This document shows positions 13,174 to 58,847 of a stretch of 62,550 nucleotides of DNA, piece by piece. Below the pieces are notes generated by a model. It made no database searches. It had not been told where the DNA came from and saw only the letters and a list, made by a program, of their open reading frames with translations. Source of the stretch: Prevotella sp. (GTDB taxonomy: Bacteria; Bacteroidota; Bacteroidia; Bacteroidales; Bacteroidaceae); assembly GCA_017475265.1 (NCBI GenBank), contig JAFVFY010000068.1, forward strand, positions 1 through 62,550. The letters are read 5' to 3'. Position 1 is the first letter of the stretch, and the number at the start of each line of letters is the position of its first letter. The position numbers and the translations under genes were made by a program.

Positions 13174-14934
13174 CTACGCCAGTTCAAGGTCGAAGATTTC
13201 GCGGAGCTTTTCTATGGAGGGGTTCTGTGAGGTAAGCAGTTCGAACTGCTCGCGGCGGGTGAGAATCTTTTCTTTTTCCTCTTGCTCGGCAACGCGGAAA
13301 GTCAGGGATATAGCGGAATTGTGGAGATATAGCTTCAGCGTGGCGAGTATACTGCCGCGTATCTGCTCCACCTCGGTCTTGATAATCTCGTTGGGGACGA
13401 CAACCTCCACGTTAGGCACTTCGAGGATGGTGGGGTTCATGTTCTTCATGCGTGCCGCTATACCGCTGAGTCGCTGGGGCATACGGTTACACATGGCCAT
13501 CCATTGCAGTTCAAGGTCTTGCTGCGAGAACTGTTCTTGCTCGTCAGTCTTTTTGGTTTCCACTCCCTGTGTGCCAGGAAGTATTTGCATTTTCTTGTTC
13601 TGCTGGCGTAGGCTGTTCCACGATGAGCCAATGCTGGAAAGACGGAGCGTTGCTGGCCCTCCTGCGAGAGTTCCCTTTGCTACTGGGGGTGTCTGTTGAG
13701 GCTTCGGGGCTTCTTGTGTATTCGGTTTCTCAGCCGCGGCTACCTGCGGGGCCGACTGCTTGATGGGCTGAGCTTGCTGAATAAGTTGTTTGAACAGGGA
13801 TTTTAATCTTCTGGGCTTACGCCCACTACCAGGCGTGTCTTCTGGTTGCGTTATCTGTGCCACCTGGATGAGTGTCAGCTCTACAAGAAGACGCTTATTG
13901 GATGACGTGCGGTAGTTGATGTCGCAGTCGTTCATAATCTTCAACGCGGTGTAGAGGAAACGGGTATCTGCACGCTGTGCCTGTTCCTGATACCGTTGTC
14001 GCATCTGGTCGCTGACCTCCAGGAGTGGCAACGTCTGAGCATCTTTCGCCATAAGTACGTTGCGAGTATGCCTTGCCAGTCCTTGTACGAGCAGACCTGC
14101 ATCAAAGCCTTTGTTCAGTACGTCGTTAAGCAGCACCATGATGTCGGCCACCTTATTCTGTGTGGAGTAGTCGATGATGCGGAAGTAATATTCGGCATCG
14201 AGCACGTTGAGGTCTTCGATGACCTTCTGATACGTGATGTTCCCTTGGCAGAAAGATGCTGCCTGGTCGAAGATACTCAGCGCATCACGCATACCTCCGT
14301 CGGCCTTTTCGGCAATAACAGCCAGCGCCTCCTCCTCATATTGTATGCCTTCCTTCTCAGCCACATGCTTCAAGTGGTCGATGGTGTTCTTCACCGTCAT
14401 ACGCTCGAAGTCGTAAATCTGGCAACGGGAGAGGATAGTAGGAAGAATCTTGTGTTTCTCGGTCGTGGCGAGGATGAAGATGACATGAGCGGGTGGCTCC
14501 TCAAGTGTCTTGAGGAAAGCGTTGAAGGCTGCCGTAGAGAGCATGTGTACCTCGTCGATAATGAAGACCTTGTACTTGCCCACCTGCGGTGGTATGCGCG
14601 TCTGCTCCATGAGTGTCTTGATATGCTCCACGGAGTTGTTCGATGCAGCATCGAGCTCAAAGATATTCAGCGACCGCTGTTCATTGAACGATTGGCAGCT
14701 TTCACACTCGCCGCAAGCTTCTCCGTCTGCGGTAGGATTCTGGCAGTTGATGGCCTTGGCGAAGATACGTGCACAGGTGGTTTTTCCCACACCTCGAGGT
14801 CCGCAGAAGAGGTAGGCATGTGCCAGCTTGCCACTCTTCACGGCATTCTTCAGCGTAGTGGTCAGCGCGGACTGACCCACCACGGTGTCGAACGACATGG
14901 GACGGTATTTCCTTGCCGAAACTATATACTCCAT
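13174..14934 (-). CDS. dnaX: DNA polymerase III subunit gamma/tau
   Basis: The 586-residue clamp-loader ATPase has Walker A GPRGVGKT at 45-52, zinc cysteines C64, C74, C77 and C80, Walker B FIIDEVHML, sensor LATTEKHKILPTILSRC, and domain III to about residue 360. A low-complexity linker follows, then a C-terminal tau region ending FDLELA. The linker at about 414-427 (QTPPVAKGTLAGGPATL) is encoded by a simple-repeat copy (13653-13695) related to one in the DUF4450 gene. No slippery sequence for a gamma frameshift was evident. Confidence 0.95.
   Translation of the reverse strand: MEYIVSARKYRPMSFDTVVGQSALTTTLKNAVKSGKLAHAYLFCGPRGVGKTTCARIFAKAINCQNPTADGEACGECESCQSFNEQRSLNIFELDAASNNSVEHIKTLMEQTRIPPQVGKYKVFIIDEVHMLSTAAFNAFLKTLEEPPAHVIFILATTEKHKILPTILSRCQIYDFERMTVKNTIDHLKHVAEKEGIQYEEEALAVIAEKADGGMRDALSIFDQAASFCQGNITYQKVIEDLNVLDAEYYFRIIDYSTQNKVADIMVLLNDVLNKGFDAGLLVQGLARHTRNVLMAKDAQTLPLLEVSDQMRQRYQEQAQRADTRFLYTALKIMNDCDINYRTSSNKRLLVELTLIQVAQITQPEDTPGSGRKPRRLKSLFKQLIQQAQPIKQSAPQVAAAEKPNTQEAPKPQQTPPVAKGTLAGGPATLRLSSIGSSWNSLRQQNKKMQILPGTQGVETKKTDEQEQFSQQDLELQWMAMCNRMPQRLSGIAARMKNMNPTILEVPNVEVVVPNEIIKTEVEQIRGSILATLKLYLHNSAISLTFRVAEQEEKEKILTRREQFELLTSQNPSIEKLREIFDLELA
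13653..13695. repeat. repeat copy inside dnaX
   Basis: CCCCCAGTAGCAAAGGGAAC on the minus strand matches the CCCCCTGTAGCGAAGGGGGC unit in the DUF4450 gene (about 40049-40068). It lies in frame in the dnaX linker. Confidence 0.6.
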
Positions 14935-14940
14935 AACAGG

Positions 14941-20171: not shown

Positions 20172-20933
20172 ATGGTTGATGAAATACGGAATTATCTCTC
20201 GCGTACAGGTTACGGTTCGCTAAGACCGAGGGCTGTGCTCTTCGACATGGATGGTGTGCTCTATGACTCTATGCCTCGTCATGCCGTGGCCTGGCAGCAG
20301 TCGATGGCTCATTTCGGACTGACGATGACGGCTGCCGATGCCTACGCTACGGAGGGAGCACGAGGTATAGACACGGTAAGAAATCTGGTGCGCAAGGAGC
20401 GTGGCGAGGATATCAGCCTGGAGGAGGCCCAGATGATGTATGACCTGAAGTCGGAAATCTTTCATGCTATGACGCCTCCTGCACCCATCATGCCCGGTAT
20501 CCCTGAGCTGATGGCACAGATACACGAGTGTGGTCTCAGCATTGGTATTGTCACGGGTAGCGGACAGCGTCCGCTGATTGCCCGTCTGATGAACGACTTC
20601 GGAGACTATCTCACGGAGAATCATATTGTTACGGCCTATGATGTGGAACACGGGAAACCTGCTCCAGACCCTTACCTCATGGGGCTGGAGAAGATGGGAG
20701 ACCTGAAGCCCTGGGAGGCTTTGGTGGTGGAGAATGCTCCGCTGGGTGTGGCTGCTGCCGTAGCGGCACGATGCTTCACCATTGCCGTCAACACAGGGCC
20801 CTTGCCAGACGAGGTGCTCCTCAGTCAGGGAGCCGACATCATCTTCCCGACAATGCCCGCTTTCAGCAATCGTTGGAATGAACTTTACAACAATATAAAA
20901 TCTCAACCCTCAAATCTCAACTCTCAACTCTAA
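20172..20933 (+). CDS. HAD hydrolase, beta-phosphoglucomutase-like
   Basis: The 253-residue protein has motif I AVLFDMDGVLYDSMP, a helical cap, motif II IGIVTGSGQ, Lys in HGKPAPDPYLMGL and motif IV ALVVENAPLGVAAA. These are the marks of the PGMB/phosphatase branch, which acts on sugar phosphates or similar. The last residues (NIKSQPSNLNSQL) come from a TCTCAA simple-repeat tract running into the stop, not from family sequence. First gene of a + strand operon with apbC (1 base after the stop) and recF. Confidence 0.85.
   Translation: MVDEIRNYLSRTGYGSLRPRAVLFDMDGVLYDSMPRHAVAWQQSMAHFGLTMTAADAYATEGARGIDTVRNLVRKERGEDISLEEAQMMYDLKSEIFHAMTPPAPIMPGIPELMAQIHECGLSIGIVTGSGQRPLIARLMNDFGDYLTENHIVTAYDVEHGKPAPDPYLMGLEKMGDLKPWEALVVENAPLGVAAAVAARCFTIAVNTGPLPDEVLLSQGADIIFPTMPAFSNRWNELYNNIKSQPSNLNSQL
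20900..20931. repeat. simple repeat, TCTCAACCC type
   Basis: Drifting TCTCAAcCCTCAAa units that extend the HAD reading frame by about 13 residues. Confidence 0.7.
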
Positions 20934-20934: not shown

Positions 20935-22083
20935 ATGTCCCTCTATCCGAAAATGATCGTCGATGCGCTGGCCACCGTTACCTATGCCGGCACGAAGAAG
21001 AACCTTGTGGAGAGCGAAATGCTTGCCGACACCCCTGTTGTTGCTGCTCCTCAGAACGACGGAGAACCGTGGCAGGTGAAGGTGGTGCTGCTCTTCCCCC
21101 GCGAAACCGACCCGTTCCTGAAGTCTACCGTAAAGGCTGCCGAGGCCGCCATCCGATACCATTGTGCTACAGCACTCGGCGGTTCGCCCGCCGAGGTTCC
21201 TCTTGAGGTGGCCATAGAGACGGAGTTCAAGTCGAAGCCCCGTCCGGAGGTGGAAAAGCTTCTGCCAGGCGTGAAGAACATCATCGCCGTGAGCAGCGGA
21301 AAGGGTGGGGTAGGTAAGAGCACCGTCGCTGCCAACCTCGCTATTGCCCTGGCTCGTTTGGGCTATAGCGTGGGCCTGCTCGATACCGATATCTTCGGCC
21401 CTTCCGTGCCCAAGATGTTCAACGTCGAGGATGCCCGCCCTTACGCCGTGAAGGTAGATGGCCGAGACCTCATAGAACCTATCGAGCAGTATGGCGTAAA
21501 GCTGCTGTCCATCGGTTTCTTCGTATCACCCACTACGGCGACGCTCTGGCGCGGCGGCATGGCTACAAGTGCTCTGAAGCAGCTCATTGCCGATGCCGAC
21601 TGGGGCGAGCTTGACTACTTCATCCTCGACACCCCACCGGGTACAAGTGACATTCACCTCACTCTCCTGCAGACGCTCGCCATCACCGGTGCCGTCATCG
21701 TCTCTACGCCCCAACAGGTGGCGCTGGCCGATGCACGCAAGGGAATAGACATGTATCGCAACGAGAAGGTGAACGTCCCCATCCTCGGCTTGGTAGAGAA
21801 CATGGCGTGGTTCACTCCCGCCGAACTGCCCAATAACCGTTACTACATCTTTGGCCGTGAGGGTTGTAAGCAGCTGGCCGAGGAGATGAAGCTCCCCCTG
21901 CTGGCACAAATTCCGCTTGTGCAGGGCATCTGCGATAGTGGTGACAAGGGACAACCCGTTGCTACCAAGGTAGACACCATGACGGGACAGGCGTTTCTGA
22001 ACCTCGCACAGGCCGTGGTCACCGTCGTGAACCGCCGCAACAAGGAAATGCCAAAGACGAAAATCGTAAAAGTAGAGAAATAA
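20935..22083 (+). CDS. apbC: Mrp/NBP35-type Fe-S cluster carrier ATPase
   Basis: The 382-residue protein binds and passes on Fe-S clusters. An N-terminal MIP18/DUF59 domain (1 to about 100) is followed by the deviant Walker A KGGVGKS at 123-129, Walker B-like FILDTPPGTSDIHLTLLQ, and the C-terminal core. It ends with a basic tail. The stop is followed by a TCTCAA-type repeat and then recF. Confidence 0.93.
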   Translation: MSLYPKMIVDALATVTYAGTKKNLVESEMLADTPVVAAPQNDGEPWQVKVVLLFPRETDPFLKSTVKAAEAAIRYHCATALGGSPAEVPLEVAIETEFKSKPRPEVEKLLPGVKNIIAVSSGKGGVGKSTVAANLAIALARLGYSVGLLDTDIFGPSVPKMFNVEDARPYAVKVDGRDLIEPIEQYGVKLLSIGFFVSPTTATLWRGGMATSALKQLIADADWGELDYFILDTPPGTSDIHLTLLQTLAITGAVIVSTPQQVALADARKGIDMYRNEKVNVPILGLVENMAWFTPAELPNNRYYIFGREGCKQLAEEMKLPLLAQIPLVQGICDSGDKGQPVATKVDTMTGQAFLNLAQAVVTVVNRRNKEMPKTKIVKVEK

Positions 22084-22120
22084 AAACTCAACCTTCAAAT
22101 CTCAACCCTCAAATCATAAG
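22084..22120. repeat. simple repeat, TCTCAA type
   Basis: AACTCAACCTTCAAATCTCA and following units fill the gap between apbC and recF. Confidence 0.7.
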
Positions 22121-22124: not shown

Positions 22125-23276
22125 GTGATTCTCAACCGTCTGTCAATCCTCAACTACAAGAACATTGGAGAGGCCAGCCTTGACTTCTCTCCAAACATCA
22201 ACTGCTTCATCGGACAGAACGGGGCGGGCAAGACCAATGTGCTCGATGCCATCTACTTCCTGTCGTTCTGTCACTCCGCCCATACCACCCAGGACTCAGT
22301 AGTCCTCCGTCACGGCGAGGAGTTCATGGTGCTGGAGGGCGATTATGCTGACGGGGATTTGCAATCCCCGCCTTTACATATATATTGTGGTATGAAGCGG
22401 GGCATGAAGAAACACTTCAAGCGCGATAAGAAGGAGTACAAGCGGTTGAGCGAGCACATCGGCTTGATACCCATTGTGAACGTCTCACCCGGCGACACCC
22501 AGCTCATAGAGGGAAGTAGCGAGGAACGACGGCGGTTGATGGATGTGGTAATTGCCCAGATGGACAGAACGTACATTGCCACCCTTAACCGCTATAACAA
22601 AGCCCTTCAGCAACGTAATGCCATGCTGAAGCAGGATAGTCAGGAATCAATAGAAGGCAACAAGACTATCGACCTCGACCTGCTGGGTCTTTGGGAGGAG
22701 CAGATGGCTCATGAGGGTGAGATTATCTTTCAGAAGCGGCAGGAGTTCATTACTCACCTCATGCCTCACTTCGAACAGTTCTACTCTCGCATTTCAGGCA
22801 GCCGGGAACAGGTGTCACTTAGCTATGTGTCTCATTGCCAGCGTGGTCCATTGCTTGATGTCATTCGTCGTGACCGTCATAAAGACCTTGCCGTTGGCTA
22901 CTCCCTCCACGGTATTCATCGAGACGACCTGGAGATGCTTCTCGACGGCCATCCAATGCGCCGTGAGGGTAGTCAGGGACAGATGAAAACTTACGTCGTG
23001 GCGCTGAAGCTGGCGCAGTTCGACTATATGGCCTCCCCTCAACGGGGGAGGTTGGAAGGGCCTCCCACCACGCCCATCTTACTCCTTGATGATATTTTCG
23101 ACAAACTCGATGCCAGCCGTGTGGAGCAGATTATCTCCCTCGTCTCAGGCGAGCAGTTCGGACAGATATTTATTACCGACACCAATCGCGACCACCTCGA
23201 CCAAATCCTCCGTCACGGAGACTTCGACTACCGCCTCTTCCACGTAACCGACGGACAGGTCAACGTAGATTCGTAA
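22125..23276 (+). CDS. recF: DNA replication/repair protein RecF
   Basis: The 383-residue SMC-like ATPase loads RecA at gaps. Walker A is GQNGAGKT at 30-37, the signature region is HRDDLEMLL then GSQGQMKTYVVALKLAQFD, and Walker B is ILLLDDIFDKLD. GTG at 22125 is the start that matches the family N-terminus (MILNRLSILNYKN). Two in-frame insertions come from repeat DNA: DGDLQSPPLH (about 76-83, hairpin GGGGATTTGCAATCCCC) and ASPQRGRLEGPP (about 302-314) just before Walker B. Both fall in loops. Confidence 0.95.
   Translation: MILNRLSILNYKNIGEASLDFSPNINCFIGQNGAGKTNVLDAIYFLSFCHSAHTTQDSVVLRHGEEFMVLEGDYADGDLQSPPLHIYCGMKRGMKKHFKRDKKEYKRLSEHIGLIPIVNVSPGDTQLIEGSSEERRRLMDVVIAQMDRTYIATLNRYNKALQQRNAMLKQDSQESIEGNKTIDLDLLGLWEEQMAHEGEIIFQKRQEFITHLMPHFEQFYSRISGSREQVSLSYVSHCQRGPLLDVIRRDRHKDLAVGYSLHGIHRDDLEMLLDGHPMRREGSQGQMKTYVVALKLAQFDYMASPQRGRLEGPPTTPILLLDDIFDKLDASRVEQIISLVSGEQFGQIFITDTNRDHLDQILRHGDFDYRLFHVTDGQVNVDS
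22352..22370. repeat. hairpin repeat inside recF
   Basis: CGGGGATTTGCAATCCCCG is a near-perfect palindrome coding for GDLQSP in a surface loop position. Confidence 0.65.
23031..23067. repeat. GC-rich repeat inside recF
   Basis: CCTCCCCTCAACGGGGGAGG with a following TTGGAAGGG unit, in frame between the coiled-coil return and Walker B. Confidence 0.65.
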
Positions 23277-28822: not shown

Positions 28823-30445
28823 ATGTCACAACAAGCAATTCAAAAGACTTTGCGCGACTCCGCTGGGATGCGGTGGACGGCGCTGCTGCTCTTGGCTCTC
28901 GCCATGTTCTGCAGCTACATTTTCATGGACATCCTCTCACCTATTAAAGACCTGATGCAGGAAACCCGAGGCTGGGACTCCACGGCTTTCGGTACGATGC
29001 AGGGCTCAGAGGTGTTCCTCAACGTTTTTGCGTTCTTCCTCATCTTTGCTGGTATCATCCTCGACAAGATGGGCGTCCGCTTCACCGCCGTGCTCTCTGC
29101 CGTGGTGATGCTCGTTGGAGCCGTCATCAAGTGGTACGCTGTCTCTGAGGCATTTACGGGCAGTGGCTTAGAGCAGTGGTTCACCGACAATCTCAACTAC
29201 ATCCCGCTCTTCGACGAGTTGGGTGTCAGCCCCTTCTACGAGGGCATGCCCGCCTCGGCGAAGTTCGCCGCCAGCGGCTTTATGATCTTCGGCTGCGGCT
29301 GTGAGATGGCTGGTATTACCGTCAGCCGAGGTATCGTGAAGTGGTTCAAGGGCCGTGAGATGGCCTTGGCTATGGGTTCCGAGATGGCCCTCGCCCGCCT
29401 GGGTGTTGCCACGTGTATGATTTTCTCGCCCTTCTTCGCCCGTCTGGGTGGCCATGTCAGCGTTACCCGCTCGGTAGCCTTTGGTGTGGTACTGATGTGT
29501 ATCGCCCTGATTATGACCATTGTCTATTTCTTCATGGACCGCAAGCTTGACGCACAGACTGGTGAGGCAGAGGAGAAGGACGACCCGTTCAAGGTCAGCG
29601 ACATTGGGAAGATTCTCAGCGACGGCGGTTTCTGGCTCGTCGCTCTGCTCTGCGTGCTCTATTACTCAGCTATCTTCCCCTTCCAGAAGTACGCCGTGAA
29701 TATGCTGCAATGTAACCTCACCCTGACGCTCCCCGAGGAAGGCTCGTTCTGGGCTTCCAGCACCGTCACCCTTGTGCAGTATGTCATCATGCTCATTGTG
29801 GCCGCCGCTGGCTTTGCCTCCAACTTCCAGAAAAAGACCGGGGTGAAGTACGGTCTGTTGGCCGTGAGTATTGCCGCCCTCATCACCTACTGCTATATGG
29901 GCTTTATGCGTCAGTCAGCAGAATCTATCTTTGCCGTATTCCCCTTGCTGGCCGTGCTCATCACACCTATCCTCGGCAGCTATGTAGACCATAAGGGCAA
30001 GGCTGCTTCGATGCTCGTCCTCGGCTCGCTGCTGCTCATCGCCTGCCACCTCACGTTTGCCTTCATCCTGCCCATGTTCAAGGGTTCGGCTGTGGGTGGC
30101 ATCGCCATTGCCTACATCACCATCCTGGTGCTCGGCTCGTCGTTCTCGCTGGTTCCTGCATCACTTTGGCCTTCCGTACCTAAGTTGGTTGATGCCAAGG
30201 TGATAGGTTCTGCCTACGCACTTATTTTCTGGATTCAGAACATTGGCCTTTGGCTTTTCCCGTTGCTTATCGGTAAGGTGCTCGACGCCACCAACCCTGG
30301 CGTCACCGACCCCACGCAGTTCGACTATACCGCCCCGCTGGTGATGCTCGCCTGTCTGGGTGTGGCTGCCCTCATCCTTGGCCTCGTGCTGAAGGTTGTC
30401 GACCGCAAGCGTGGCCTCGGTCTGGAGGAACCCAACATCAAGTGA
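28823..30445 (+). CDS. MFS transporter
   Basis: The 540-residue inner-membrane protein has about 12 hydrophobic segments. It starts MSQQAIQKTLRDSAGMRWTA with the first membrane span at about 18-38. Loop motifs DKMGVRF and WFKGREMALAMGSEMALARL fit the major facilitator fold; an extended loop is near residues 105-140. The substrate cannot be predicted. It leads an operon with a TPR protein and a wecB-like epimerase. Confidence 0.85.
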   Translation: MSQQAIQKTLRDSAGMRWTALLLLALAMFCSYIFMDILSPIKDLMQETRGWDSTAFGTMQGSEVFLNVFAFFLIFAGIILDKMGVRFTAVLSAVVMLVGAVIKWYAVSEAFTGSGLEQWFTDNLNYIPLFDELGVSPFYEGMPASAKFAASGFMIFGCGCEMAGITVSRGIVKWFKGREMALAMGSEMALARLGVATCMIFSPFFARLGGHVSVTRSVAFGVVLMCIALIMTIVYFFMDRKLDAQTGEAEEKDDPFKVSDIGKILSDGGFWLVALLCVLYYSAIFPFQKYAVNMLQCNLTLTLPEEGSFWASSTVTLVQYVIMLIVAAAGFASNFQKKTGVKYGLLAVSIAALITYCYMGFMRQSAESIFAVFPLLAVLITPILGSYVDHKGKAASMLVLGSLLLIACHLTFAFILPMFKGSAVGGIAIAYITILVLGSSFSLVPASLWPSVPKLVDAKVIGSAYALIFWIQNIGLWLFPLLIGKVLDATNPGVTDPTQFDYTAPLVMLACLGVAALILGLVLKVVDRKRGLGLEEPNIK

Positions 30446-30460
30446 GGATTGAGAGTTGAG

Positions 30461-30577
30461 AATTGAGAAATATGATTACCTTTGGATTCAGTATTATGAC
30501 AAAGAAGTGTGAAGGCAATGTATGGTTGCCGATGGTAATCATATTTCTCATTTTTCATTTCTTGTTTCTCACTTCTA
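30461..30577. repeat. inverted arms at the start of the TPR gene
   Basis: GAGAAATATGATTACC (about 30465-30480) is matched by GGTAATCATATTTCTC (30534-30549), with flanking TTGAGA and TTTCTCATTTTTCATTTC simple repeats. The right arm codes for the signal-peptide core of the TPR protein. Confidence 0.75.
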
Positions 30578-31685: not shown

Positions 31686-32798
31686 ATGAAGAATATTTGT
31701 GTTGTAGTGGGCGCACGCCCCAACTTCGTGAAAGTGGCTCCGCTGATACGTGCCATAGAGCACAGCGAGCAAGGAGTCTATACGCTGGTATATGCCGGTT
31801 GTGACGATGATCCCACGCTGGAGTCCACGCTCTTCGAAGACCTTCAGATGCCCCGCCCTGACGTGTTTCTGGGTGTCGGTAGCAGCAGTCTGAACGAAAT
31901 CACCAGTCAGGTGATGGCACGCTTCGACGCCTTTCTCGACGAGCACCCCGTCGACGTGGTCATCGTTGTCGATGACCTTGCCTCTACTATGGCCGCTGCT
32001 ATCGTGGCCAAGAAGCGCGGCCTCACGCTGGCACACCTTGTGGCCGGCACGCGCTCCTTCGACATGAAGATGCCCAAAGAGGTCAACCGCCTCGTCATCG
32101 ATGCTCTCTCCGACATCCTTTTCACCGCAGGTGTACGTAGCAACAGCGTCGCCACCCGCGAGCAGGCCGAGGGTTCCACCACCTACATGGTGGGCAACAT
32201 CCTCATGGACTCCCTGCGCTTCTGCCAGCCACGGCTCCGCAAGCCAGACATCGACGTTGAGGAAGGGAAATATCTGGTGTTCACCATCAATCGCCGAGCC
32301 TTGCTTTCCGACCCCGAGAAACTCTCCCAGTTGTTGCAAGCCATTGTCACTTCAGCTGGCGACACGCCTATCATCGCACCGTTGCGCGACGAAGCCCGTC
32401 AGGCCATTGAACATTCACTATTGACCATTGACCATTACACTGCCAATAAAGTTCAATGCTCAATAGTCAATGGTCAACGGTCATTGGTCAATATTCAATC
32501 TCCGCTCTCTTACCTCGAGTTTGGCTGGCTCACCGCCCATGCCCGTGGCATCATCACTGACAGCGGCAACGTTGCTGAAGAGGCCACCTTCAATGGCGTG
32601 CCCTGCATTACCCTCAACAGCTATACCGAGCATCAGGAGACCGTCACCCAAGGCACCAACGTTCTCGTAGGCGAAGATTCTGAACGCCTCGCACAGGCTG
32701 TCAGTCAGATGGTGGGTGGACAATGGAAATCCGGCTCCCTGCCAGACCGTTGGGACGGACGCACGGCAGAGCGCATCGTTAAAATATTGATTGACTAA
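31686..32798 (+). CDS. wecB: UDP-N-acetylglucosamine 2-epimerase
   Basis: The 370-residue enzyme interconverts UDP-GlcNAc and UDP-ManNAc for surface polysaccharide. It starts VVVGARPNFVKVAPLIRAIE. The C-terminal binding motif is ITDSGNVAEEATFNGVPCIT, then TEHQETVTQGTN. Residues about 241-275 (EHSLLTIDHYTANKVQ and on) are encoded by an inverted TTGACCATTGACC repeat pair in frame between the two Rossmann domains; the sequence on each side is normal family sequence. Confidence 0.9.
   Translation: MKNICVVVGARPNFVKVAPLIRAIEHSEQGVYTLVYAGCDDDPTLESTLFEDLQMPRPDVFLGVGSSSLNEITSQVMARFDAFLDEHPVDVVIVVDDLASTMAAAIVAKKRGLTLAHLVAGTRSFDMKMPKEVNRLVIDALSDILFTAGVRSNSVATREQAEGSTTYMVGNILMDSLRFCQPRLRKPDIDVEEGKYLVFTINRRALLSDPEKLSQLLQAIVTSAGDTPIIAPLRDEARQAIEHSLLTIDHYTANKVQCSIVNGQRSLVNIQSPLSYLEFGWLTAHARGIITDSGNVAEEATFNGVPCITLNSYTEHQETVTQGTNVLVGEDSERLAQAVSQMVGGQWKSGSLPDRWDGRTAERIVKILID
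32407..32500. repeat. inverted TTGACCATTGACC arms inside wecB
   Basis: Left arm ATTGACCATTGACCATT, a spacer of about 30-35 bases, then right arm TCAATGGTCAACGGTCATTG and GTCAA. All in frame. Confidence 0.85.
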
Positions 32799-33465: not shown

Positions 33466-33499
33466 ACAATAAACGTTAAACAATAACCAATAACCGTTA
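33466..33499. repeat. left arm bracketing four-helix-bundle gene
   Basis: ACAATAAAC..AACAATAACCAATAACC simple repeat. It contains the stop codon of the small gene. The inverse arm is at 33871-33903. Confidence 0.75.
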
Positions 33500-33856: not shown

Positions 33857-33870
33857 TGCTACGCGCAGCC

Positions 33871-33903
33871 AACGTTTATTGTTTATTGGTTATTGTTTAT
33901 TGT
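33871..33903. repeat. right arm bracketing four-helix-bundle gene
   Basis: AACGTTTATTGTTTATTGGT and following TATTGTTTATTGT, the inverse of the left arm; it ends 3 bases before lepA's stop. Confidence 0.75.
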
Positions 33904-37699: not shown

Positions 37700-37735
37700 C
37701 TCTCAATTCTCAAATCTCAAATTTCAAATCTCAAA
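37700..37735. repeat. simple repeat, TCTCAAA type
   Basis: TCTCAATTCTCAAATCTCAA and more; it fills the gap up to the GTG of the next gene. Confidence 0.75.
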
Positions 37736-40700
37736 GTGAACTGGAAGTTTATTATCAGCTGGACGGTGAAGTTCGTCCTGTGTGTGATTGTCTGGGACAT
37801 TGCCGTGTGGATTACGAATAGTATGGGACTGGCCTTCTTCATGGCCTTGGGTTTCCTTATCCTCTTTGCCATTGTCGAGAGTTATGTGATAGACTGGTGG
37901 GAGAAGAGACGTGAAGCGAAACAATTTGTCAAGGCATTGTTGTTGATTCTTGCCTTGCATTGTCTGCCCCTCGCTTCCTCTGCAAAGTACATCCCGGAGA
38001 ACCGTGGCTTTGTCTGCGAGAATGGTAAGAACCGCTTTACCCGTGCACTCTACGGCGGCCATAGTGACTATCGCATTGAGACAAGCGACAAGCCCATCTT
38101 TGCCATCGTGAAGAAGGATCACCATCGTAGCCTTACCTTCGAGGTAGAGGGCGTGAGGCTCGATTCGGCACAGTATGCCTGGTGCAGCTACGAGCATGGC
38201 ACGCGTACATATACCTTATGGGACTCCCGCTGGGAGAAGTTCGGCGATGGTGTCATCCGTTTGAAGGTGGTGGCGCTGCTGGACGAGGAAGGTGCTGCCT
38301 TCGAGATTATCGGCGACAAATGGCAAGGCCCCTTCCGCATCAAATACCGTCTGAGTAACATCGCCGGAAAGAAGATGAACCGCAACGGCGACCTAGGCGT
38401 AGACGACCCAGGAACGTTTGACCCGTCACCCGACGGCGAGGGCATGGAGGAAGGACTATGTGCCAGCTTCCGGAACTTCGGCCACCTGGTGATACACCTC
38501 GACAAGGTGGCTCCCATAGGCGACATCTCGTCTACGGAACTGTTCAACAGTACCGTTGCGCAGTACAAGAAGATGGCCGACCGCGTGGTGTTCAACACCC
38601 CCGACCCCTATATCAACACCCTGGGATGGGCGCTCGTCATGGCTGCCGACGGCGACTGGGACGGCAAGACCTGGCTGCACGGCTGCATAGGCTGGCGTAC
38701 TCCGCTGCCCGGATGGCGTGCTGCCTATATGGGTGACGTGCTGGGATGGGACGACCGCGCCGTGACGCACTTCAACGCCTACGCCAAGAGCCAGGTAACG
38801 CAGGTGCCGCCCACCATCAAGCATCCCTCGCAAGACCCGGAGCAGAACATGGCACGGGCCAAGAAGGAGTGGGGCACGCAGATGTATAGCAACGGATATA
38901 TCTGCCGTTCGCCGGAGCGCAACGACCAGATGCACCACTACGACATGAACCTTTGCTACATCGACGAGCTGCTCTGGCACTTCCAGTACAATGCCGACAA
39001 GGCTTACATGCGCAAGATGTGGCCCGTCATCAAAAGCCATCTGGAGTGGGAGAAGCGTAACTTCGACCCCGACGGCGACCACCTCTACGATGCCTACTGC
39101 TGCATCTGGGCCAGCGACGCCCTTTATTATAGTGGTGGGGCTGTGACCCACTCCTCGGCCTATAACTACCGTGCCAACAAACTGGCGGCACGTATCGCCG
39201 AGCTGATAGGCGAGAATCCTGCTCCCTACCGTGAGGAGGCAGAAGCCATTCTGAAGGCCATGAACGAATGGCTTTGGACTTCCTCAAATCTCAATTCTCA
39301 AAACTCAACTCTCAAATCATTTGGCCATTGGGCTGAGTATCAAGATGCTATGGGCCTGAAACGGCTGCACGAGAGCGCTGCCGTGTGGAGCATTTACACG
39401 CCTATTGACTGTGGTGCCGGAACGCCTGAGCAGTTCTATCAGGCCACGCAGTACGTAGACAGCGAGATTCCCCATGTCGACGTGGAAGGAACAGAACTAA
39501 AGACTATCGCCACGAGCAACTGGATGCCCTACGCCTGGAGCATCAACAATGTGGCTCCGGCAGAGGTGATGCATACCGCGCTGGCCTATTTCCAGGCAGG
39601 ACGTACCGATGAGGGATATAACCTGCTGAAGGCCAACATCATGGACAACATGTACAACGGTCAGTCACCCGCTAACTTTGGACAGCTGAGCCAGTACGAT
39701 GCTGCACGAGGCGAGTGCTACCGTGACTTCGGCGATGTCATAGGCATCAGCAGTCGCACGCTTATACAGGGACTCTTTGGCGTCGTTCCCAACGCGCTCT
39801 ACGGCGAGTGCATTATCCGTCCGGGATTCCCCTCGAAGTGGGACAAGGCACAGATACGCACGCCCTATCTGGAGTATAAGTACACGCGGACGAATGGTAA
39901 AGTACGCATAGAGGTGTGGCAGAACTTTGCCAAAACGCTGAAGATTGTCATCCGCCAGAACGAGGCAGGAGGCCGTTACCACGACATTGAGGGAACTGCC
40001 GAGCAGCATCAGGTGATAGAGTATGAGGCACAGCAGACTCCCTCCCAGCCCCCTGTAGCGAAGGGGGCAGAGACCTCGGATGCCGAGAATATCATCGCCC
40101 AATGTAACCATTTCTCTCCCTCGCAAGGCACTAAGGGAGGTTCTCTTAAATTCAAGAAGGTGTTTTTTGAACCTAGCTTTAACGCCAAGGTGACTGACAT
40201 CTTCAATAACAAGTACACGTCGCCGCGCCCACAGACCACCACGCTACAGATTCCCTTGCAAGGGGTAGGGGAGTGGTGTCATCCGAAATACTTGCCTACT
40301 ATCGATGACTCAGGCCTCCGTAACATGGTTCGCAAGGGCGAGGTCAGCCTGCAGGGCGTGCCCTTCCGCACGCCGAAGGATGGCAACAACATCATGTTCG
40401 TGAGCCTTTGGGACAACTATCCCAATGAGGGACTCGTTCCGCTGGAAGGCAAGGCCTCCACGGCCTATCTGCTTATGGCCGGTACAACGAACCCCATGCA
40501 GAGCCGGATAGACAACGGTGTAATCGTTGTCAGATACGCTGACGGCACGAGCACGCAGTTGCCCCTGCGCAATCCTGATAACTGGTGCCCCATAGAACAG
40601 GACTACTACGTAGACGGCAAGGCATTCTCCGCTATCACGCCGCGTCCTTACCGCGTTAGCCTTGCAACAGGAGAAGTGAGCCGAGACCTAGGAGGAAAAC

Positions 40701-40885: not shown

Positions 40886-42478
40886 ATGAGCATTTCCTTT
40901 ATGATGGAAGGTCTGATTAAACTATATAAGGAGTGGCACGGGGATGCACCTGTAGATTGTTCTCGATTGCCAGGCGCTGGCAGCAACAGGGCCTACTATC
41001 GCCTTACTGATGCAGATGGTTGCACGGTGATAGGATGCGTGGGTACGAGCCGTGAGGAGAATGAGGCATTCATTTATCTCTCGCGTCATTTCGCCAGCAA
41101 GCAACTGCCTGTTCCCGAAGTGCTGGCAGCGAGCAATGACAACCTGTGCTACCTGCAGACGGACTTAGGCGCTACCTCGCTCTTCGATGCCATACGGGCA
41201 GGGCGTGAGGCCGGTGGGAAATACAATGAGCAGGAGCGTGAACTGCTGCGCCGCACCATACAGGAACTGCCGCGCCTGCAGTTTGTTGGCCACGAGGGGC
41301 TCGACTATTCTCATTGCTACCCGCAGCCTCAGTTCGACCAAGAGGGCATTTTCTTCGACCTCAACTATTTCAAGTATTGCTTTCTGAAAGCTACTGACAT
41401 TGACTTCCACGAGGTACGCTTGGAGGCAGACTTCCATGCCTTAGCCCGTGACCTCCTTGCCGAACCGTCGGCGTCATTCCTCTATCGCGACTTCCAGGCA
41501 CGTAATGTAATGATTATTGACCATTCACCATTGACCATTGACCATTCTACTTCACCAGAAGATGCACCAGCAAATAATGGTCAATGGTCAATGGTCAATG
41601 GTCAATGCTATATCATCGACTTCCAGGGCGGACGCCGTGGTCCCTACTACTACGACCTCGCCTCCTTCCTCTGGCAAGCCTCTGCCCGCTATCCCGACAG
41701 TCTGCGCCGCGAGCTGATAAACGAGTATTATACCGGTGCCCGGCAATACACCACGTTGCCCCCACGCTCGGAGTTCGACCGCCGTCTGCGCCTCTTCGTA
41801 CTCTTCCGTACGCTTCAGGTGCTCGGTGCCTACGGCTTCCGTGGCTATTTCGAGCGCAAGCAGCACTTCATCGACTCCATACCGCCGGCCATTCAGAATC
41901 TGAGGGAATTGTTAGACAGTCAGACAGACGAAGAGAGCAGTTCCTGCGATTATCCCTATCTTTCGGAGGTGTTACGCCGTTTGACCACTCATTTCTCGAC
42001 TCATAAAGGTAACGTCACTTTCATTCCCCCTTCACTCCCCCTTCACTCCCCTTTCACTCCCCAACAACTTGTTGTCCGCATCTTCAGCTTTTCTTACAAG
42101 AAAGGCATCCCCGAGGACGAGAGTGGCAATGGAGGCGGCTATGTCTTCGACTGCCGTTCCACGCACAATCCCGGTCGCTATGAGAAGTACAAACAGATGA
42201 CCGGCCTTGACGAACCTGTCATCCGCTTCTTGGAGGAAGACGGTGAGATACTTACTTTTCTAGAAAGTGTATACCGCCTTGCCGATGCTCATGTGGAACG
42301 TTACTTGGAGCGTGGTTTCACCTCACTCATGTTTTCTTTCGGCTGCACAGGTGGACAACACCGTTCCGTTTACTCCGCACAGCACTTGGCAGAGCACCTC
42401 AACAAGAAATATGGCATTGAGGTGCACCTCTGCCATCGAGAGCGTGGCATCAGCCAGACCTTTGGTGCTTCTCAATGA
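40886..42478 (+). CDS. APH/AmgK-like kinase fused to RapZ C-terminal domain
   Basis: The 530-residue cytoplasmic protein has, at about 1-350, an aminoglycoside-phosphotransferase-like kinase: GSNRAYYRL, a catalytic loop FLYRDFQARNVMI, and IDFQGGRRGPYYYDLASFLW. From about 395 it matches the RapZ C-terminal domain (VRIFSFSYKKGIPEDESGNG, then CTGGQHRSVYSAQHLAEHL). Residues 210-241 are an inverted TTGACCA repeat set within the catalytic loop, and residues 376-393 (IPPSLPLHSPFTPQ) are a TTCACTCCCC repeat serving as the domain linker. The start could also be 40901 or 40904, since 40886 has its leader covered by a hairpin. The substrate is probably a sugar, unproven. Confidence 0.82.
   Translation: MSISFMMEGLIKLYKEWHGDAPVDCSRLPGAGSNRAYYRLTDADGCTVIGCVGTSREENEAFIYLSRHFASKQLPVPEVLAASNDNLCYLQTDLGATSLFDAIRAGREAGGKYNEQERELLRRTIQELPRLQFVGHEGLDYSHCYPQPQFDQEGIFFDLNYFKYCFLKATDIDFHEVRLEADFHALARDLLAEPSASFLYRDFQARNVMIIDHSPLTIDHSTSPEDAPANNGQWSMVNGQCYIIDFQGGRRGPYYYDLASFLWQASARYPDSLRRELINEYYTGARQYTTLPPRSEFDRRLRLFVLFRTLQVLGAYGFRGYFERKQHFIDSIPPAIQNLRELLDSQTDEESSSCDYPYLSEVLRRLTTHFSTHKGNVTFIPPSLPLHSPFTPQQLVVRIFSFSYKKGIPEDESGNGGGYVFDCRSTHNPGRYEKYKQMTGLDEPVIRFLEEDGEILTFLESVYRLADAHVERYLERGFTSLMFSFGCTGGQHRSVYSAQHLAEHLNKKYGIEVHLCHRERGISQTFGASQ
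41515..41607. repeat. inverted TTGACCATTGACC arms inside kinase gene
   Basis: Arm ATTGACCATTCACCATTGAC and further units, a spacer of about 28 bases, then AATGGTCAATGGTCAATGGT and more. In frame between NVMI and YIIDFQGG. Confidence 0.88.
42021..42065. repeat. TTCACTCCCCC repeat as domain linker
   Basis: Four units of about 11-12 bp in frame between kinase and RapZ-like domains. The same repeat is intergenic at 23279 and 57735. Confidence 0.85.
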
Positions 42479-49648: not shown

Positions 49649-52255
49649 TTACGATTTACTGTATGTTAGTTCTTCTTTCTCGGGATGCTTGTCAATGTGG
49701 ATAACGGAACCAAGCTTCAGATCCTCGCCGAGGATGAGCTCGCAGACACCGTCCTCAATATAGTTCTGCAGGGCACGTTTTAGCGGACGGGCACCGAATT
49801 GCACATCGTAGCCTTTCGTGGCGATGAACTCCTTGGCAGCATCGGTAAGTGTCACCTCATAACCCAAGTCCCTGATGCGTTTCATTAGCGGACGAAGTTC
49901 AACATCGACGATTCGTTTGATAGCTTCTAGGTCGAGCTGGTCGAAGGTGATAATCTCGTCCAGACGGTTGAGAAACTCTGGCGAGAACTGCTTTGACAGG
50001 GCTTTCTGCACGATGCTGCGGGCATGCTCACGGTCTTTCTCGTCCATGTTGGCACCGAAGGTCGTAGCATTGAAGCCCACACCACGACCAAAGTCCTTCA
50101 GCTGGCGTGTTCCCGCGTTGCTGGTCATGATGATGACGGTGTTGCGGAAATCCACAAAACGACCGTTGCCATCGGTGAGGCGACCCTCGTCGAGTACTTG
50201 CAACAGGAGGTTAAAGACGTTGCCGTGGGCTTTCTCTATTTCGTCGAGGAGTACAATGCTGTAAGGTTTGCGGCGTACGCGCTCGGTAAGCTGTCCGCCC
50301 TCCTCATAGCCTACGTAGCCCGGAGGCGCTCCAATAAGGCGAGAAACGTTGAACGATTCGGTATATTCACTCATGTCGATACGGATAAGTGCATCGGCAG
50401 AGCCGAACATCTGCTCGGCAAGCTTCTTGGCTAGGTATGTCTTTCCCACACCTGTTGGACCTAGGAACATGAAGGCTCCAATGGGGTGGTTGGGGTCTTT
50501 CAATCCGACACGGTTGCGCTGTATGGCCTTTACCATCTTGTCGATAGCCTTGTCCTGTGCGATGACGCAATCCTTCAATGCTGGTCCCATGTTCTTCAGC
50601 CTCATGCCCTCGTTCTCGGCCATTCGTTGCACAGGAATTCCAGTCATCATGGAGACAACATCGCTCACCTCGGATTCGGTTACCATCTGGCTGTCATCAA
50701 GTCCTCCTGCCTGCCATTCCTCCTGCATCTGTTTCAGTTCCTGTTCCAGCTCTGCCTGACGGTCACGATAGCTGGCAGCAAGTTCAAAGTTCTGATTGCT
50801 GACGGCACGCCCCTTCTTCTCCTTCACCTGGCTCAGTTCCTTCTCCTTCTCAGCAATCTCTGGCGGAATCTGTGCAGTTTTTAAATGTACGCGCGAACCT
50901 GTTTCGTCCATAGCGTCAATAGCCTTGTCAGGCTGGCTGCGGTCGGTGACATATCGTTCTGTCAATTTGACACACGCCAAGATGGCATCATCGGTATAAC
51001 GCACGTGATGATGATGCTCATAGCGATCTTTGATATTCTGGAGTATTTGAATGGTCTCATCGATGGTGGTGGGGTCGATGATGACCTTTTGGAAACGGCG
51101 TTCTAGTGCGCCGTCTTTCTCTATGGAGTTGCGGTATTCGTCGAGCGTGGTAGCTCCGATACACTGTATGGTTCCCCTTGCCAATGCGGGTTTCATGATA
51201 TTGGCAGCATCCATGGAGCCTGCAGTGCCTCCTGCGCCTATCATGGTGTGAATCTCATCGATGAATACAATGATGTCGGGTGTTGACTCTATCTCCTTGA
51301 GCAGCGCCTTGATGCGTTCCTCAAACTGTCCACGGTATTTCGTTCCGGCCACAAGACCCGTCATATCGAGGTTGACAATGCGCTTGCCCAAAAACATAGG
51401 CGAGCACTTGCGCTGAGCGATAAGCTGAGCCAGCCCTTCTACAATTGCACTCTTACCAACGCCGGGTTCTCCGATGAGTATGGGGTTGTTTTTCTTACGT
51501 CGTCCTAGAATCTCCATCACACGCTGAATCTCCCGTTCACGGCCAACCACAGTGTCGAGTTTACCCTCCGTAGCGGCCTTCGTAAGGTCAGTGGAGAAAT
51601 TGTCGAGCACAGGAGTCTTCGACTTCTCCTTCTGTCCTTCTCCTTTTTTATCAGTAGTGTTGGTGGTTGTGCCTTGTTCGTCATCCTCCTCGTCCTCATC
51701 GGGAAGATTGAGGGCATCCTGGGGATTGAGATTTCTTGCTCCGACAGGCTCAATAAGTGTCCCGTTGGGTCGGGCGGAGGTTTGAGATTTGAGATTTTGT
51801 TGTTCGCCACCCTTGAGCAGGGTCAGCAGGTCATCATAGTTCATGTTATTTGTCTCGAGAATTTGTTTGGCTCCGTTGTTCACCTGGTCGTGCAGGATAG
51901 CCAGCAACAGATGTTCCTCCTCTACGGGCTGCTTATGTTGTATGCGAGCCTCAAGCACAGCGAGCTTTAAGATATTCGATGCACTCTCGTTGAGGACAAT
52001 ATCTCTTTGAGGAGTTGAGGAGTCGTGTAGTTGTGTAGCTGTAGAGTCGTTGCGTAGCTTCTGCTCCAATGACTGCTTGATGAAAGGAGTATTAAGTTGT
52101 AGGCGTCGGAAAACGCTGTTTGCTGCCCCGTCTTTCATGCGCATCATACCCAGTAGAAGATGTTCGGGGCCAACGCTGGTGCTCGACAGACGGGCTGCCT
52201 CCTCACGAGAGAAGGCTAATATTTCAGATACCTTTGAAGAAAATTGACTTGTCAT
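49649..52255 (-). CDS. clpC: ATP-dependent Clp protease ATPase subunit (ClpC-type)
   Basis: The 868-residue AAA+ unfoldase has a Clp_N repeat domain ([20 protein letters not shown]), first Walker A GEPGVGKS, a middle UVR-like segment ([20 protein letters not shown]), and second Walker A GPTGVGKT, with Walker [12 protein letters not shown]. It feeds proteins to ClpP. Within the N-terminal region two repeat-derived inserts occur: [15 protein letters not shown] (about 68-83) and [10 protein letters not shown] (about 152-160), both in loops or the linker before D1. An acidic linker [12 protein letters not shown]-like run also precedes D1. Confidence 0.93.
51777..51800. repeat. TTTGAGATTTGAGATT repeat inside clpC
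   Basis: Two to three TTTGAGA units in frame in the linker before D1 (minus-strand reading TCTCAAATCTCAAA, the same as the intergenic type). Confidence 0.75.
52009..52055. repeat. simple repeat inside Clp_N of clpC
   Basis: GAGGAGTTGAGGAGTCGTGT and AGTTGTGTAGCTGTAGAGTC units in frame between the two Clp_N halves. Confidence 0.65.
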
Positions 52256-54844: not shown

Positions 54845-55453
54845 TCAGCGTATGACTTTTACCTCCCCTCCTGGTCCAAGCTTGATGATGGCTGAGGGCT
54901 GATGGGGCTTGTGTTCCTGTCGGCGGCTCCAGCAGACATAGTCCACTTGCTCAATAATACGTGGGTCTATGTCGCGGTAGTTCTGGGCGGCTGGTTCTCC
55001 GCTGATGTTGGCCGAGGTTGAGACGATGGCCTTCTGGAAACGGTAGCACAGTTCTCGGGAGAAGGATTCCTGGGTGATACGTATGCCGACAGAGCCATCG
55101 GCAGCGATAAGATTGGGTGCCAGATTGACGGCTCCGTCGAGGATGAGGGTGGTAGGTCGGATAGCTTCGGCCTTTGACTTTTGACCTTCGGCCTTTGACT
55201 CCATCAGGCAGTCGATGAGCTGCCAGGCCACATCGGGCACGTTGCGCACATAGCGTTGCAGACGAGCATCGCTGTCTACCAGACATATAAGTGACTTGGA
55301 GTCATCGCGCTGCTTTATCTCATATACACGCCGTACTGCATCCTCGTTGGTGGCATCACAGCCAATTCCCCAAATGGTGTCCGTGGGGTATAGGATGATG
55401 CCACCCCGGCGCAGCACCTCCACGGCGTTCTTAATATCCTGTTCTTGTGTCAT
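54845..55453 (-). CDS. threonylcarbamoyl-AMP synthase (Sua5/YrdC)
   Basis: The 202-residue enzyme makes the intermediate for the t6A37 modification of tRNA, together with TsaD (57774). Visible are GGIILYPTDTIWGIGCDATN, VYEIKQRDDSKSLICLV, and STSANISGEPAAQNY. I start at MTQEQD (55453), since the first seven codons of the longer reading lie over the promoter. Residues about 84-97 (ESKAEGQKSKAEAI) come from a simple repeat GGCCTTTGACTTTTGACC in frame. Confidence 0.9.
   Translation of the reverse strand: MTQEQDIKNAVEVLRRGGIILYPTDTIWGIGCDATNEDAVRRVYEIKQRDDSKSLICLVDSDARLQRYVRNVPDVAWQLIDCLMESKAEGQKSKAEAIRPTTLILDGAVNLAPNLIAADGSVGIRITQESFSRELCYRFQKAIVSTSANISGEPAAQNYRDIDPRIIEQVDYVCWSRRQEHKPHQPSAIIKLGPGGEVKVIR
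55164..55203. repeat. simple repeat inside sua5
   Basis: TCGGCCTTTGACTTTTGACC then TTCGGCCTTTGACTCC, a near-duplicate coding for KAEGQKSKAE. Confidence 0.75.
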
Positions 55454-55573: not shown

Positions 55574-55580
55574 CAGCTCA

Positions 55581-57678: not shown

Positions 57679-57679
57679 A

Positions 57680-57720: not shown

Positions 57721-57734
57721 CTAATAAGGTATCG

Positions 57735-57780
57735 TCCCTTTCACTCCCCTTTCACTCCCCTTTCACTCCTCTTTCACTCC
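57735..57780. repeat. simple repeat, CCTTTCACTCC type
   Basis: Four CCTTTCACTCCC units at the 3' end of tsaD. Confidence 0.8.
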
Positions 57781-58847
57781 AAAGTAACTTTCGAGAACGC
57801 TGGAGCATCAATGTCACAGAACTCATGGTCGAGGTACTTGTAATAGCCCGTGACGGCAATCATGGCGGCGTTGTCGGTGGTGTAGCTGAATTTGGGGATG
57901 TACACCGTCCATCTGTATCGGCGCGCATGGTCGTGGAAGGCATTGCGTAGTCCTGTGTTGGCACTTACGCCACCTGCAACAGCCACATGCTTGATGCCAG
58001 TATCTTTGACGGCCTTGCGCAGCTTGCGCATCAGAATGTCTACAATAGTCCACTCCAGCGATGCTGCCAGGTCTTCCTTATGGTGCTCAATGAACTGCGG
58101 GTCGTCCTCCAGCCATTTCCTCAGGTTGTAGAGGAACGAAGTCTTGAGTCCTGAGAAGCTGTAGTCGTAGCCTGGTATCTGTGGTTCGGCAAATTGCAAC
58201 GCGTGCGGGTCGCCCTGTCGTGCCAGCTTGTCGATGATAGGACCTCCGGGATAGCCCAGGCCCATCACCTTCGAGCACTTGTCGATGGCCTCGCCCGCAG
58301 CATCGTCGATAGTCTGTCCCAGGATAGTCATCTTGTTGTAGGCATCTACCCGCACTATCTGCGAGTTGCCACCACTGACAAGGAGGCAAAGGAAGGGAAA
58401 GGGTGGCCTCCCCAACCCCTCCAAAGGAGGGGCTTCAGACTCCCCTCCTGTGAGGGTAGGGTGCAGGTTGGGGGAGGTTATAAAATGTGCCATGACATGT
58501 CCTTGCAGATGGTTCACATCGATGAGGGGAATGCCCAGCGAGCGTGCAAAGCCCTTGGCGAAGTTTACTCCCACGAGGAGCGAACCCATGAGGCCCGGTC
58601 CACGAGTAAAGGCAATGGCAGAGAGTTGCTCCTTGTTGATGCCCGCCCGTTTGATGGCCTCGCTAACCACGGGTACTACGTTCTGCTGGTGAGCACGACT
58701 GGCCAGTTCAGGCACCACGCCACCGTAGGCTTCGTGAACGGACTGTGAGGCGGTGACATTGGAAAGCAACTCGTCATTACGAAGAACAGCTGCCGACGTG
58801 TCGTCGCAGCTGGACTCTATTCCCAATATGTAAACGTTATTGTTCAA
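57774..58847 (-). CDS. tsaD: tRNA t6A threonylcarbamoyltransferase
   Basis: The 357-residue Kae1-fold ATPase transfers the threonylcarbamoyl group to A37 of tRNA, using the product of Sua5. It shows YILGIESSCDDTSAAVL, FTRGPGLMGSLLVGVNFAKG, metal-binding HLQGHVMAH, LCLLVSGGNSQIV and AVAGGVSANTGLR. Residues about 123-148 (TSPNLHPTLTGGESEAPP and on) are absent from typical members and are encoded by inverted CCTCCCCAACC/GGTTGGGGGAGG arms just after the metal-binding histidines. The reading frame and both flanks are normal. Confidence 0.95.
   Translation of the reverse strand: MNNNVYILGIESSCDDTSAAVLRNDELLSNVTASQSVHEAYGGVVPELASRAHQQNVVPVVSEAIKRAGINKEQLSAIAFTRGPGLMGSLLVGVNFAKGFARSLGIPLIDVNHLQGHVMAHFITSPNLHPTLTGGESEAPPLEGLGRPPFPFLCLLVSGGNSQIVRVDAYNKMTILGQTIDDAAGEAIDKCSKVMGLGYPGGPIIDKLARQGDPHALQFAEPQIPGYDYSFSGLKTSFLYNLRKWLEDDPQFIEHHKEDLAASLEWTIVDILMRKLRKAVKDTGIKHVAVAGGVSANTGLRNAFHDHARRYRWTVYIPKFSYTTDNAAMIAVTGYYKYLDHEFCDIDAPAFSKVTLE
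58402..58481. repeat. inverted GC-rich arms inside tsaD
   Basis: CCTCCCCAACCCCTCC at one side, about 45 bases of related GC-rich units, then AGGTTGGGGGAGG. In frame. Confidence 0.85.

Follow-up and report, generated by a model that had tools for sequence, protein, structure and literature searches.

The window analysed here is a 62,550-nucleotide stretch of DNA, one contig (JAFVFY010000068.1) of the 4.75-Mb, 135-contig genome of a Prevotella sp. (GCA_017475265.1), and it carries short tandem arrays of simple units both between genes and in frame inside conserved genes. Tandem Repeats Finder (TRF) detects arrays in it with units of 7, 8, 11 and 22 bases, several of which form inverted pairs. 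The nearest named relatives of this genome are rumen Prevotella records (for instance, Prevotella sp. RGIG9954 from yak, whose WecB is 87% identical), with Xylanibacter ruminicola a more distant one. The arrays and hairpins inside genes of the window lie as follows.

23037..23054, + strand: C-rich hairpin in recF, insert at residues 305–310
32404..32499, + strand: in-frame inverted pair of TTGACCA-type heptamer arrays in wecB (DNA fold z −3.8)
35487..35518, − strand: C-rich hairpin in lepA, coding PNPSNGGG
39283..39318, + strand: CTCAAAT array in frame in the DUF4450 gene (TRF, orthologue comparison)
40028..40057, + strand: second DUF4450 insert, a C-rich hairpin coding PPVAKG
41511..41617, + strand: kinase/RapZ-C gene, site 1, in-frame inverted pair (ATTGACC)4 / (AATGGTC)4 (DNA fold z −10.7)
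42020..42062, + strand: kinase gene, site 2, in-frame 11-base array (TTCACTCCCCC) standing where most relatives have about 50 residues
43707..43797, − strand: inverted pair of 8-base units in the beta-galactosidase gene, between WDWVDQG and YGGDFGD (DNA fold z −5.6)
51731..51796, − strand: clpC insert at residues 154–175, with an AAATCTC array
52007..52042, − strand: clpC insert site near residues 73–77, where the nearest relative has a different, longer expansion
55171..55199, − strand: weak CCTTTGA array of 29 nt in sua5 (TRF score 37)
58392..58463, − strand: C-rich hairpin insert in tsaD, residues 126–145 (DNA fold z only −1.0)

A first-pass annotation had claimed that the simple units seen between genes of the window also sit in frame inside at least a dozen of its conserved genes. 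Units are indeed in frame at these places, as they are genome-wide and far beyond chance. Comparison with orthologues bears out the inserts of wecB, of clpC at both sites, of tsaD (residues 126–134 and 140–145, against 14 orthologues), of DUF4450 (515–525 and 765–774, against one orthologue only) and of recF (172–178 and 305–310, against two orthologues; only the second is a visible simple repeat). The kinase gene had been said to carry two inserts: the first is upheld by orthologues, while the second fails as a clean insertion, as the residues it replaces are present in 12/15 relatives. The lepA and beta-galactosidase repeats are visible in the gene's own sequence, as are those of three weaker cases: the sua5 array, a Pro/Gln-rich linker with a short C-rich hairpin in dnaX and an 8-base array (TRF score 42) in a Pfam amylase gene. 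Many of the window cases (recF, lepA and tsaD, the last with no heptamer) are C-rich hairpins. Those of the form CCTCCCCCAACCCCTCC..GGAGGGGTTGGGGGAGG are in frame in these three genes and others, and are a separate family that explains several of the non-heptamer cases.

The wecB pair has about five codons between its arms, resembling host residues. In the predicted structure the insert falls between helix 235–247 and strand 268–271, with ten-residue means of the predicted local distance difference test of 39 and 59 against 84 overall, so that it is modelled as a low-confidence loop; 4neq, the best match among solved structures, shows a gap of 11 residues at this site. The kinase pair carries the motif CAGCAAATAATGG in its loop, and its left arm escapes an in-frame stop by a TGA-to-TCA change. 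A DNA fold test of two single, unpaired arrays formed no structure.

The repeats are not confined to the window. We analysed 858,550 bp of this genome, extended to 1.24 Mb by further contigs, and found 213 seven-base arrays in the larger set. The added contigs were chosen because they carry TTGACCA matches, and the initial ones, all except C98, are also on the TTGACCA-match list; the added contigs are excluded from the unit-sharing test described below and included in the counts of pairs, orientation and stop escape. In the 858-kb subset a lag-7 detector at a score of at least 12 finds 122 arrays against 0 simulated, and TRF gives period 7 in 159 of 682 rows as compared with 1 of 39 in an order-3 Markov simulation; these are long simple sequence repeats in the sense of tandem 5–11-bp units beyond the genome's chance level. 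Density at score 12 is 521/Mb between genes and 100/Mb in coding sequence. At score 14, where one simulation per sequence set gives 0 arrays, there are 119 arrays/Mb in this genome, 157 in a yak relative, 95 in a red-deer relative and 40 in a fourth genome, G278; the corresponding figures are 30 for a set of 21 named Prevotella loci and 52 for 13 loci from Bacteroides and its relatives. The G278 assembly consists of two contigs, and 400 kb of it contain 10 in-gene arrays, hence fragmented assembly is not the cause of the arrays.

Interior arrays occur in 63 genes of the 1.24 Mb, as delimited by a crude gene caller made for this analysis, so "at least a dozen" was an underestimate. NCBIfam was applied to 30 of the 63: 14 reach the curated cut-off (RimO, MurG, GcvPA, GcvPB, CobJ, CbiE/CbiT, CbiF, CbiB, CobQ, PrmA, UxuA, PurB, QueA and RibD), nine match below it and seven have no match at 1e-15. 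Pfam names, among seven array proteins, the NAD-dependent DNA ligase LigA, in whose gene two stop-bearing arrays have been made readable, and the 20-kDa NADH-dehydrogenase subunit NuoB. Across the four genomes, the sense strand of interior arrays is open (free of stops) in 92 cases, stop-bearing in 21 and undefined in 15. A stop on exactly one strand is no mark of these units in itself: it is seen in 202/234 arrays, but letter-shuffled units give 62%, and counting each distinct unit once per genome (68/89) leaves a mild excess only. One gene of 3142 residues, at C42:2617-12045 of this genome, has five interior heptamer arrays.

Orthologous sites were obtained for 37 of 290 array clusters. The length difference from the orthologue is a multiple of three in 53/53 interior comparisons and 13/41 intergenic ones, leaving aside two gene-edge clusters whose differences are not multiples of three and one self-match. 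Multiples of three are expected where both genes are intact; the result therefore shows real coding inserts whose frame is preserved, and is no evidence on mechanism. Array length itself follows no rhythm of three inside genes, and this candidate regularity was dropped. At the 23 interior sites the nearest orthologue has no detected array in 21 cases, a different unit in two and the same unit in none, so that orthologues sharing the same extra residues, which would have told against the first-pass annotation, were not encountered at the sites compared; the detector's "none" is wrong for two intergenic clusters (43 and 69), where the array is conserved by eye. At array-free orthologous sites the best match to the unit is no better than in random DNA at 21/23, the exceptions being sites 7 and 196; this test omits sites with segments above 120 nt as well as clusters 43 and 69.

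Units at a given site replace one another. At the WecB site this genome has the TTGACCA pair, the yak relative CACTCTT units and the deer relative CTCAACT units; at C32:89232, whose flanks match deer at 92% identity, ATTTACG units here correspond to ATTCTTA units there over nearly the same length; and in deer the RimO site is occupied by a C-rich inverted repeat that is unrelated but equally long. Sites persist while array sequences turn over.

Units and loops are also dispersed within a genome. The probability that two arrays share a unit is 0.056 within a genome and 0.020 between genomes (206 thinned arrays, four genomes), a value reached in 0/300 label permutations. In 1.24 Mb there are three instances of the loop motif CAGC[AC]AATAATG, and all of them lie between the arms of in-gene TTGACCA pairs (kinase, RimO and NuoB). 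Some arrays, in genes too, have embedded in them a GC-rich hairpin of about 30 bases, CGCTCGGCC..GGACGCTTGC..GCAAG. Its form CTCGGCC..GGACGCTTGC has 53 copies in this genome and is present in 48/200 genus genomes (reversed control, 0 matches), and CTCCGCTCGGCC lies within 40 bp of arrays at 8 of 11 places, a neighbourhood that makes up 2.2% of the DNA. By eye, heptamers surround the embedded hairpin in only two of eight loci from other genomes (L295 and L299), and we therefore take it to be an element of its own.

Stop-bearing TTGACCA arms inside genes read ATT GAC CAT TCA CCA TTG ACC, with TCA in place of an in-frame TGA. The change is found in 9/34 heptamers of eight in-gene stop-bearing arms (p 9e-8) belonging to eight genes (WecB, the kinase, RimO, QueA, an RluA-type gene, NuoB and two unnamed); it is absent from 132 heptamers of 25 in-gene open arrays and from 20 heptamers of only three intergenic arrays. 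Eight single changes of TGA yield a sense codon, and at arm ends TCT, TCC, TCG and once CGA stand at the escape position. Genome-wide, the middle codon of 69 matches is TGA in 46, TCA in 16 (12 loci), TGG in 4, TGT in 2 and GAA in 1; the non-TCA changes may sit on open arms and thus be no escapes. The shared change suggests gene-to-gene descent from an ancestor already adapted to coding. In-gene stop-bearing arms also show a 21-nt superperiod (0.947 at lag 21 vs. 0.865 at lag 7; 10 of 13 arrays better, 2 worse) that is absent from open and intergenic arrays and reflects growth in frame-keeping steps. In a search for TTGACCATNNNCCATTGACC, genome G008 gave three matches to the reversed control and none to the true pattern.

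Inverted pairs have a handedness. In the four genomes, pairs within 150 bp have the stop-bearing, mostly purine-rich arm on the left in 24 cases and the reverse in one (p 1.5e-6 if pairs are independent); with only 13 different left-arm units, the 24 pairs are not 24 independent events. Arm units agree to 0–1 bases in 19/24. Eight pairs each lie inside a single gene, all with the standard handedness, and a further pair spans two genes. An inverted pair reads identically from both strands, so neither coding nor replication direction can be the source of the rule; the sequence or a machine must be. Among non-array inverted repeats (this genome, yak and deer; loops to 100) there is a mild general purine-left bias between genes only (167 purine-left, 55 purine-right, 20 equal, vs. 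26 and 32 within genes). In co-directional gaps above 70 bp, stop-bearing arrays lie on the stop side in 39/48 cases and open arrays on the start side in 16/23 (Fisher 5e-5). Arrays have a modal size of four full units (137/337), to which the thinning of two- and three-unit arrays by the detection threshold contributes. On the stop-bearing strand, mismatches are fewer in the first unit than in the last (two contexts, p ~0.02 in either), and reading this as the direction of array growth is a lead only.

Copying by template switching during replication or repair, followed by selection and slippage, has in our judgement about an even chance of being the explanation of these arrays. The genome would hold a population of short elements, each an array of about four heptamers that stands alone or is matched by an inverted partner across a loop, some carrying the embedded hairpin as a small dispersed repeat. 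New copies would arise when an existing array or hairpin is copied into another place: a 3' end that has stalled would take a single-stranded array or hairpin from elsewhere as its template, through ordinary replication or repair rather than a dedicated transposase. Selection would retain intergenic copies and those in-gene copies that keep the frame, contain no stop and fall in a tolerant loop, and local slippage would afterwards lengthen, shorten and alter them. The first-pass annotation had likewise proposed a process that spreads simple repeats over the chromosome, and unit sharing, seedless sites, the loop recurring in three genes and the stop escape recurring in eight all support it; that the process is "active or recent" holds at the species level only.

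Several observations weigh against copying by template switching. It predicts neither the seven-base unit nor the 24:1 handedness, nor does it explain the four-unit mode. The intergenic arrays of clusters 43 and 69 look conserved at 93–94% flank identity, hence not all arrays are new; within-genome sharing is modest at 5.6%, so much local turnover must also occur; and array-free orthologues are 71–93% identical, so a local seed could have decayed. Kinase site 2 looks like a replacement. By eye we found, at the orthologous sites compared, no clean junction and no target-site duplication such as a miniature inverted-repeat transposable element would leave, junctions being blurred by divergence. 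TCA is the commonest change in other genus genomes too, among the matches listed, and could reflect an old subfamily or a preferred amino acid, TCT, TCC and TCG also being serine codons.

We hold it unlikely, and yet the most serious competitor, that a dedicated enzyme (a reverse transcriptase, a telomerase-like polymerase or an HUH transposase) lays or moves the units, with a template in the genome setting the unit and the direction of the machine setting the handedness. The consistency of handedness over 13 left-arm units fits such a machine, as does the purine-rich, stop-bearing strand, which runs 5'–3' inwards as though both 3' ends of a break had been extended with it, and the four-unit mode, with its threshold effect, points the same way. 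Against such a machine, the spacers in WecB and the kinase resemble host residues and not junction filler. Y1_Tnp (PF01797) and RVT_1 (PF00078), the families searched for, do not track array load in 18 genomes. PF01797 is above cut-off in 11/18, this genome included, with none in G208 and G278. G208 has 15 embedded hairpins and neither family, and the array-dense yak genome has no RVT_1 match and one Y1_Tnp below cut-off, although at 87–89% completeness of these genomes a gene may be missed. A transposase of the repetitive extragenic palindrome (REP)-associated type (RAYT) or a reverse transcriptase was accordingly set aside as common machine, on evidence that is weak, several of the genomes being incomplete, and with a RAYT-type gene that does not follow the load the arrays are not placed with REP sequences or REPINs.

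That replication slippage acted independently at each place, selection accounting for frame and loops and mutational preference for the shared units, is improbable. Heptamers are the most abundant 5–11-nt class in most genomes (Mrazek 2007, as related in the part of PMC4679880 consulted), relatives differ in unit at the same site as local turnover would give, and the 21-nt periodicity shows in-frame slippage. As an only cause, slippage from a local seed is made unlikely by the seedless sites (21/23) together with within-genome unit sharing, and neither the loops and embedded hairpins held in common nor one stop escape recurring in eight genes would be expected of it.

We are very doubtful that the arrays are functional RNA or DNA signals selected at gene borders (hairpins between co-directional genes, mRNA stability, termination), with in-gene copies as spill-over. 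The placement of stop-bearing and open arrays in gaps and the roughly fivefold intergenic density would suit this role. Part of the polarity is general, however, because non-array intergenic inverted repeats are also purine-left, and an array with stops close to the end of a gene is bound to terminate that gene, which by itself can put stops beside arrays. Unit sequences are not conserved, the two folded single arrays form no structure, and all eight pairs inside one gene keep the handedness. G-quadruplexes are not a general cause here, since GGG (on either strand) is rare in the units (11/337 arrays) and the four G-tracts are lacking. A viral or plasmid vehicle was set aside: viral_contigs contain neither the core of the embedded hairpin nor the TCA 20-mer, and one 155-base stretch of C76 has no match in plasmids. 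Plain TTGACC and AACTCTC 20-mers do occur in 8 and 58 stretches of viral_contigs (L314-L379).

We searched the literature for heptamers or dispersed palindromes in Prevotella and Bacteroidetes and found no such report, with few subscription papers covered. Elhai et al. reportedly described, in 2008, small dispersed repeats (SDR) of filamentous cyanobacteria, dispersed 20–40-nt hairpins embedded in tandem heptamers (short tandemly repeated repetitive sequences, STRRs), and to our knowledge no enzyme is known for SDR. Short hairpins embedded in heptamer arrays are found here as well; by description, the Prevotella arrays differ in phylum, in their many in-frame copies in core genes, in pair handedness and in the common stop escape. 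Rickettsia palindromic elements are said by Ogata et al. to be palindromes inserted in frame in genes for functional proteins. They had been named the nearest parallel in the first-pass annotation, reasonably so, since in-frame palindromic inserts in otherwise normal genes are what we see; the cyanobacterial heptamers are closer, Rickettsia elements being longer palindromes not known to carry tandem heptamers. The part of PMC3733652 consulted also treats Rickettsia palindromic elements inserted in genes. According to the consulted part of PMC2996958, palindromic amphipathic repeat coding elements (PARCELs) carry a 25-residue amphipathic motif, often in membrane proteins; like the present elements they are palindromic, coding and dispersed, unlike them they are not heptamers in enzymes. 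MacGregor (2015; PMC4679880), in the portion consulted, describes TAACTGA repeats in Beggiatoaceae, Cyanobacteria and some Bacteroidetes, one strand of which bears stops in all frames and lies mostly before start codons, whereas the open strand is tolerated in open reading frames (ORFs), mostly in hypothetical proteins or at protein ends. Heptamer arrays with one stop-bearing strand and an open strand tolerated in ORFs are common to both cases; that study concerns one unit, whereas here many units lie in loops of conserved enzymes.

The consulted part of Rehm et al. (2015; PMC4692102) reports that GGGNATC heptamers of Xanthomonas and Nostoc prefer four units and co-directional gaps, the G-rich strand being the sense strand downstream of stop codons and the antisense strand upstream of starts. 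The seven-base unit, four-unit mode, co-directional gaps and polarity are all shared with the Prevotella arrays, in which, unlike GGGNATC, units with GGG are rare and copies inside genes common. The likeness adds to the case for a dedicated enzyme, and the same mode and polarity without GGG call into question the quadruplex explanation in Xanthomonas and Nostoc. It is a long shot that Bacteroidales, Xanthomonas and cyanobacteria have in common a unit-agnostic, heptad-laying activity, which would extend DNA 3' ends by about four units with telomere-like polarity (purine-rich strand pointing outwards) and so leave inverted heptamer arms at repaired breaks; in Prevotella, a line of the product free of stops and adapted to coding would then have moved between genes and made loops of core enzymes longer.

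Short simple repeats here behave like mobile, protein-remodelling elements in a common rumen lineage, the arrays being a source of in-frame insertions by which loops of core enzymes gain runs of residues. Any mechanism will have to account for three quantitative results, namely the rule of handedness, the mode at four units and the stop escape held in common, and these assist in telling copying from slippage. Gene calls and protein models of these species will contain such inserts.

At gene borders of the window, we found the following arrays.

20898..20931, + strand: CTCAACT/CTCAAAT array ending a HAD gene, just 5' of an Mrp-type gene (AAATCGT unit in the nearest relative)
22083..22115, + strand: array between the Mrp-type gene and recF
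30443..30576, + strand: stop-bearing array from the stop codon of an MFS gene, and a complementary open array after the next start (a different unit, AAAAATG, in the nearest relative)
33477..33903, − strand: complementary array pair flanking a 119-residue gene, with the palindrome CGCGCAGCC at 33862
37698..37735, + strand: CTCAAAT array 5' of the DUF4450 start
58844..58879, − strand: TCAATTG array adjoining a tRNA gene and the tsaD start

The open array at 30543-30576 encodes IIFLIFHFLFLTSS, a hydrophobic stretch with which a TPR protein begins, perhaps its signal peptide. Eleven-base arrays of TTTCACTCCCC follow CGTCC at 23280-23335 and 57736-57780, and elsewhere form intergenic hairpins with GGGGAGTGAAAGGGACG. 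Two arrays whose 22-base unit has the palindrome AGAGAAA-ACGGC-TTTCTCT lie 17 kb apart at 18755-18856 and 35842-35942, both intergenic; TRF gives 44 period-22 rows in the 858 kb against 1 in simulation. An Rfam scan of the window matched only a tRNA and an abiF RNA (58 bits) at 3404-3440, near small ORFs, a possible abortive-infection locus. Long intergenic inverted repeats, TAGGGGGTTGGGGGTCTGAAC..GTTCAGACCCCCAACCCCCTA, resembling miniature inverted-repeat transposable elements, occur at 8529-8638 of the window and, closely similar, at C103:69106, C67:7637 and C67:13651 of the same genome. Repeats of 69 bases at 24324-24469, 25259-25410 and 61107-61290 are perhaps in genes for repeat proteins.

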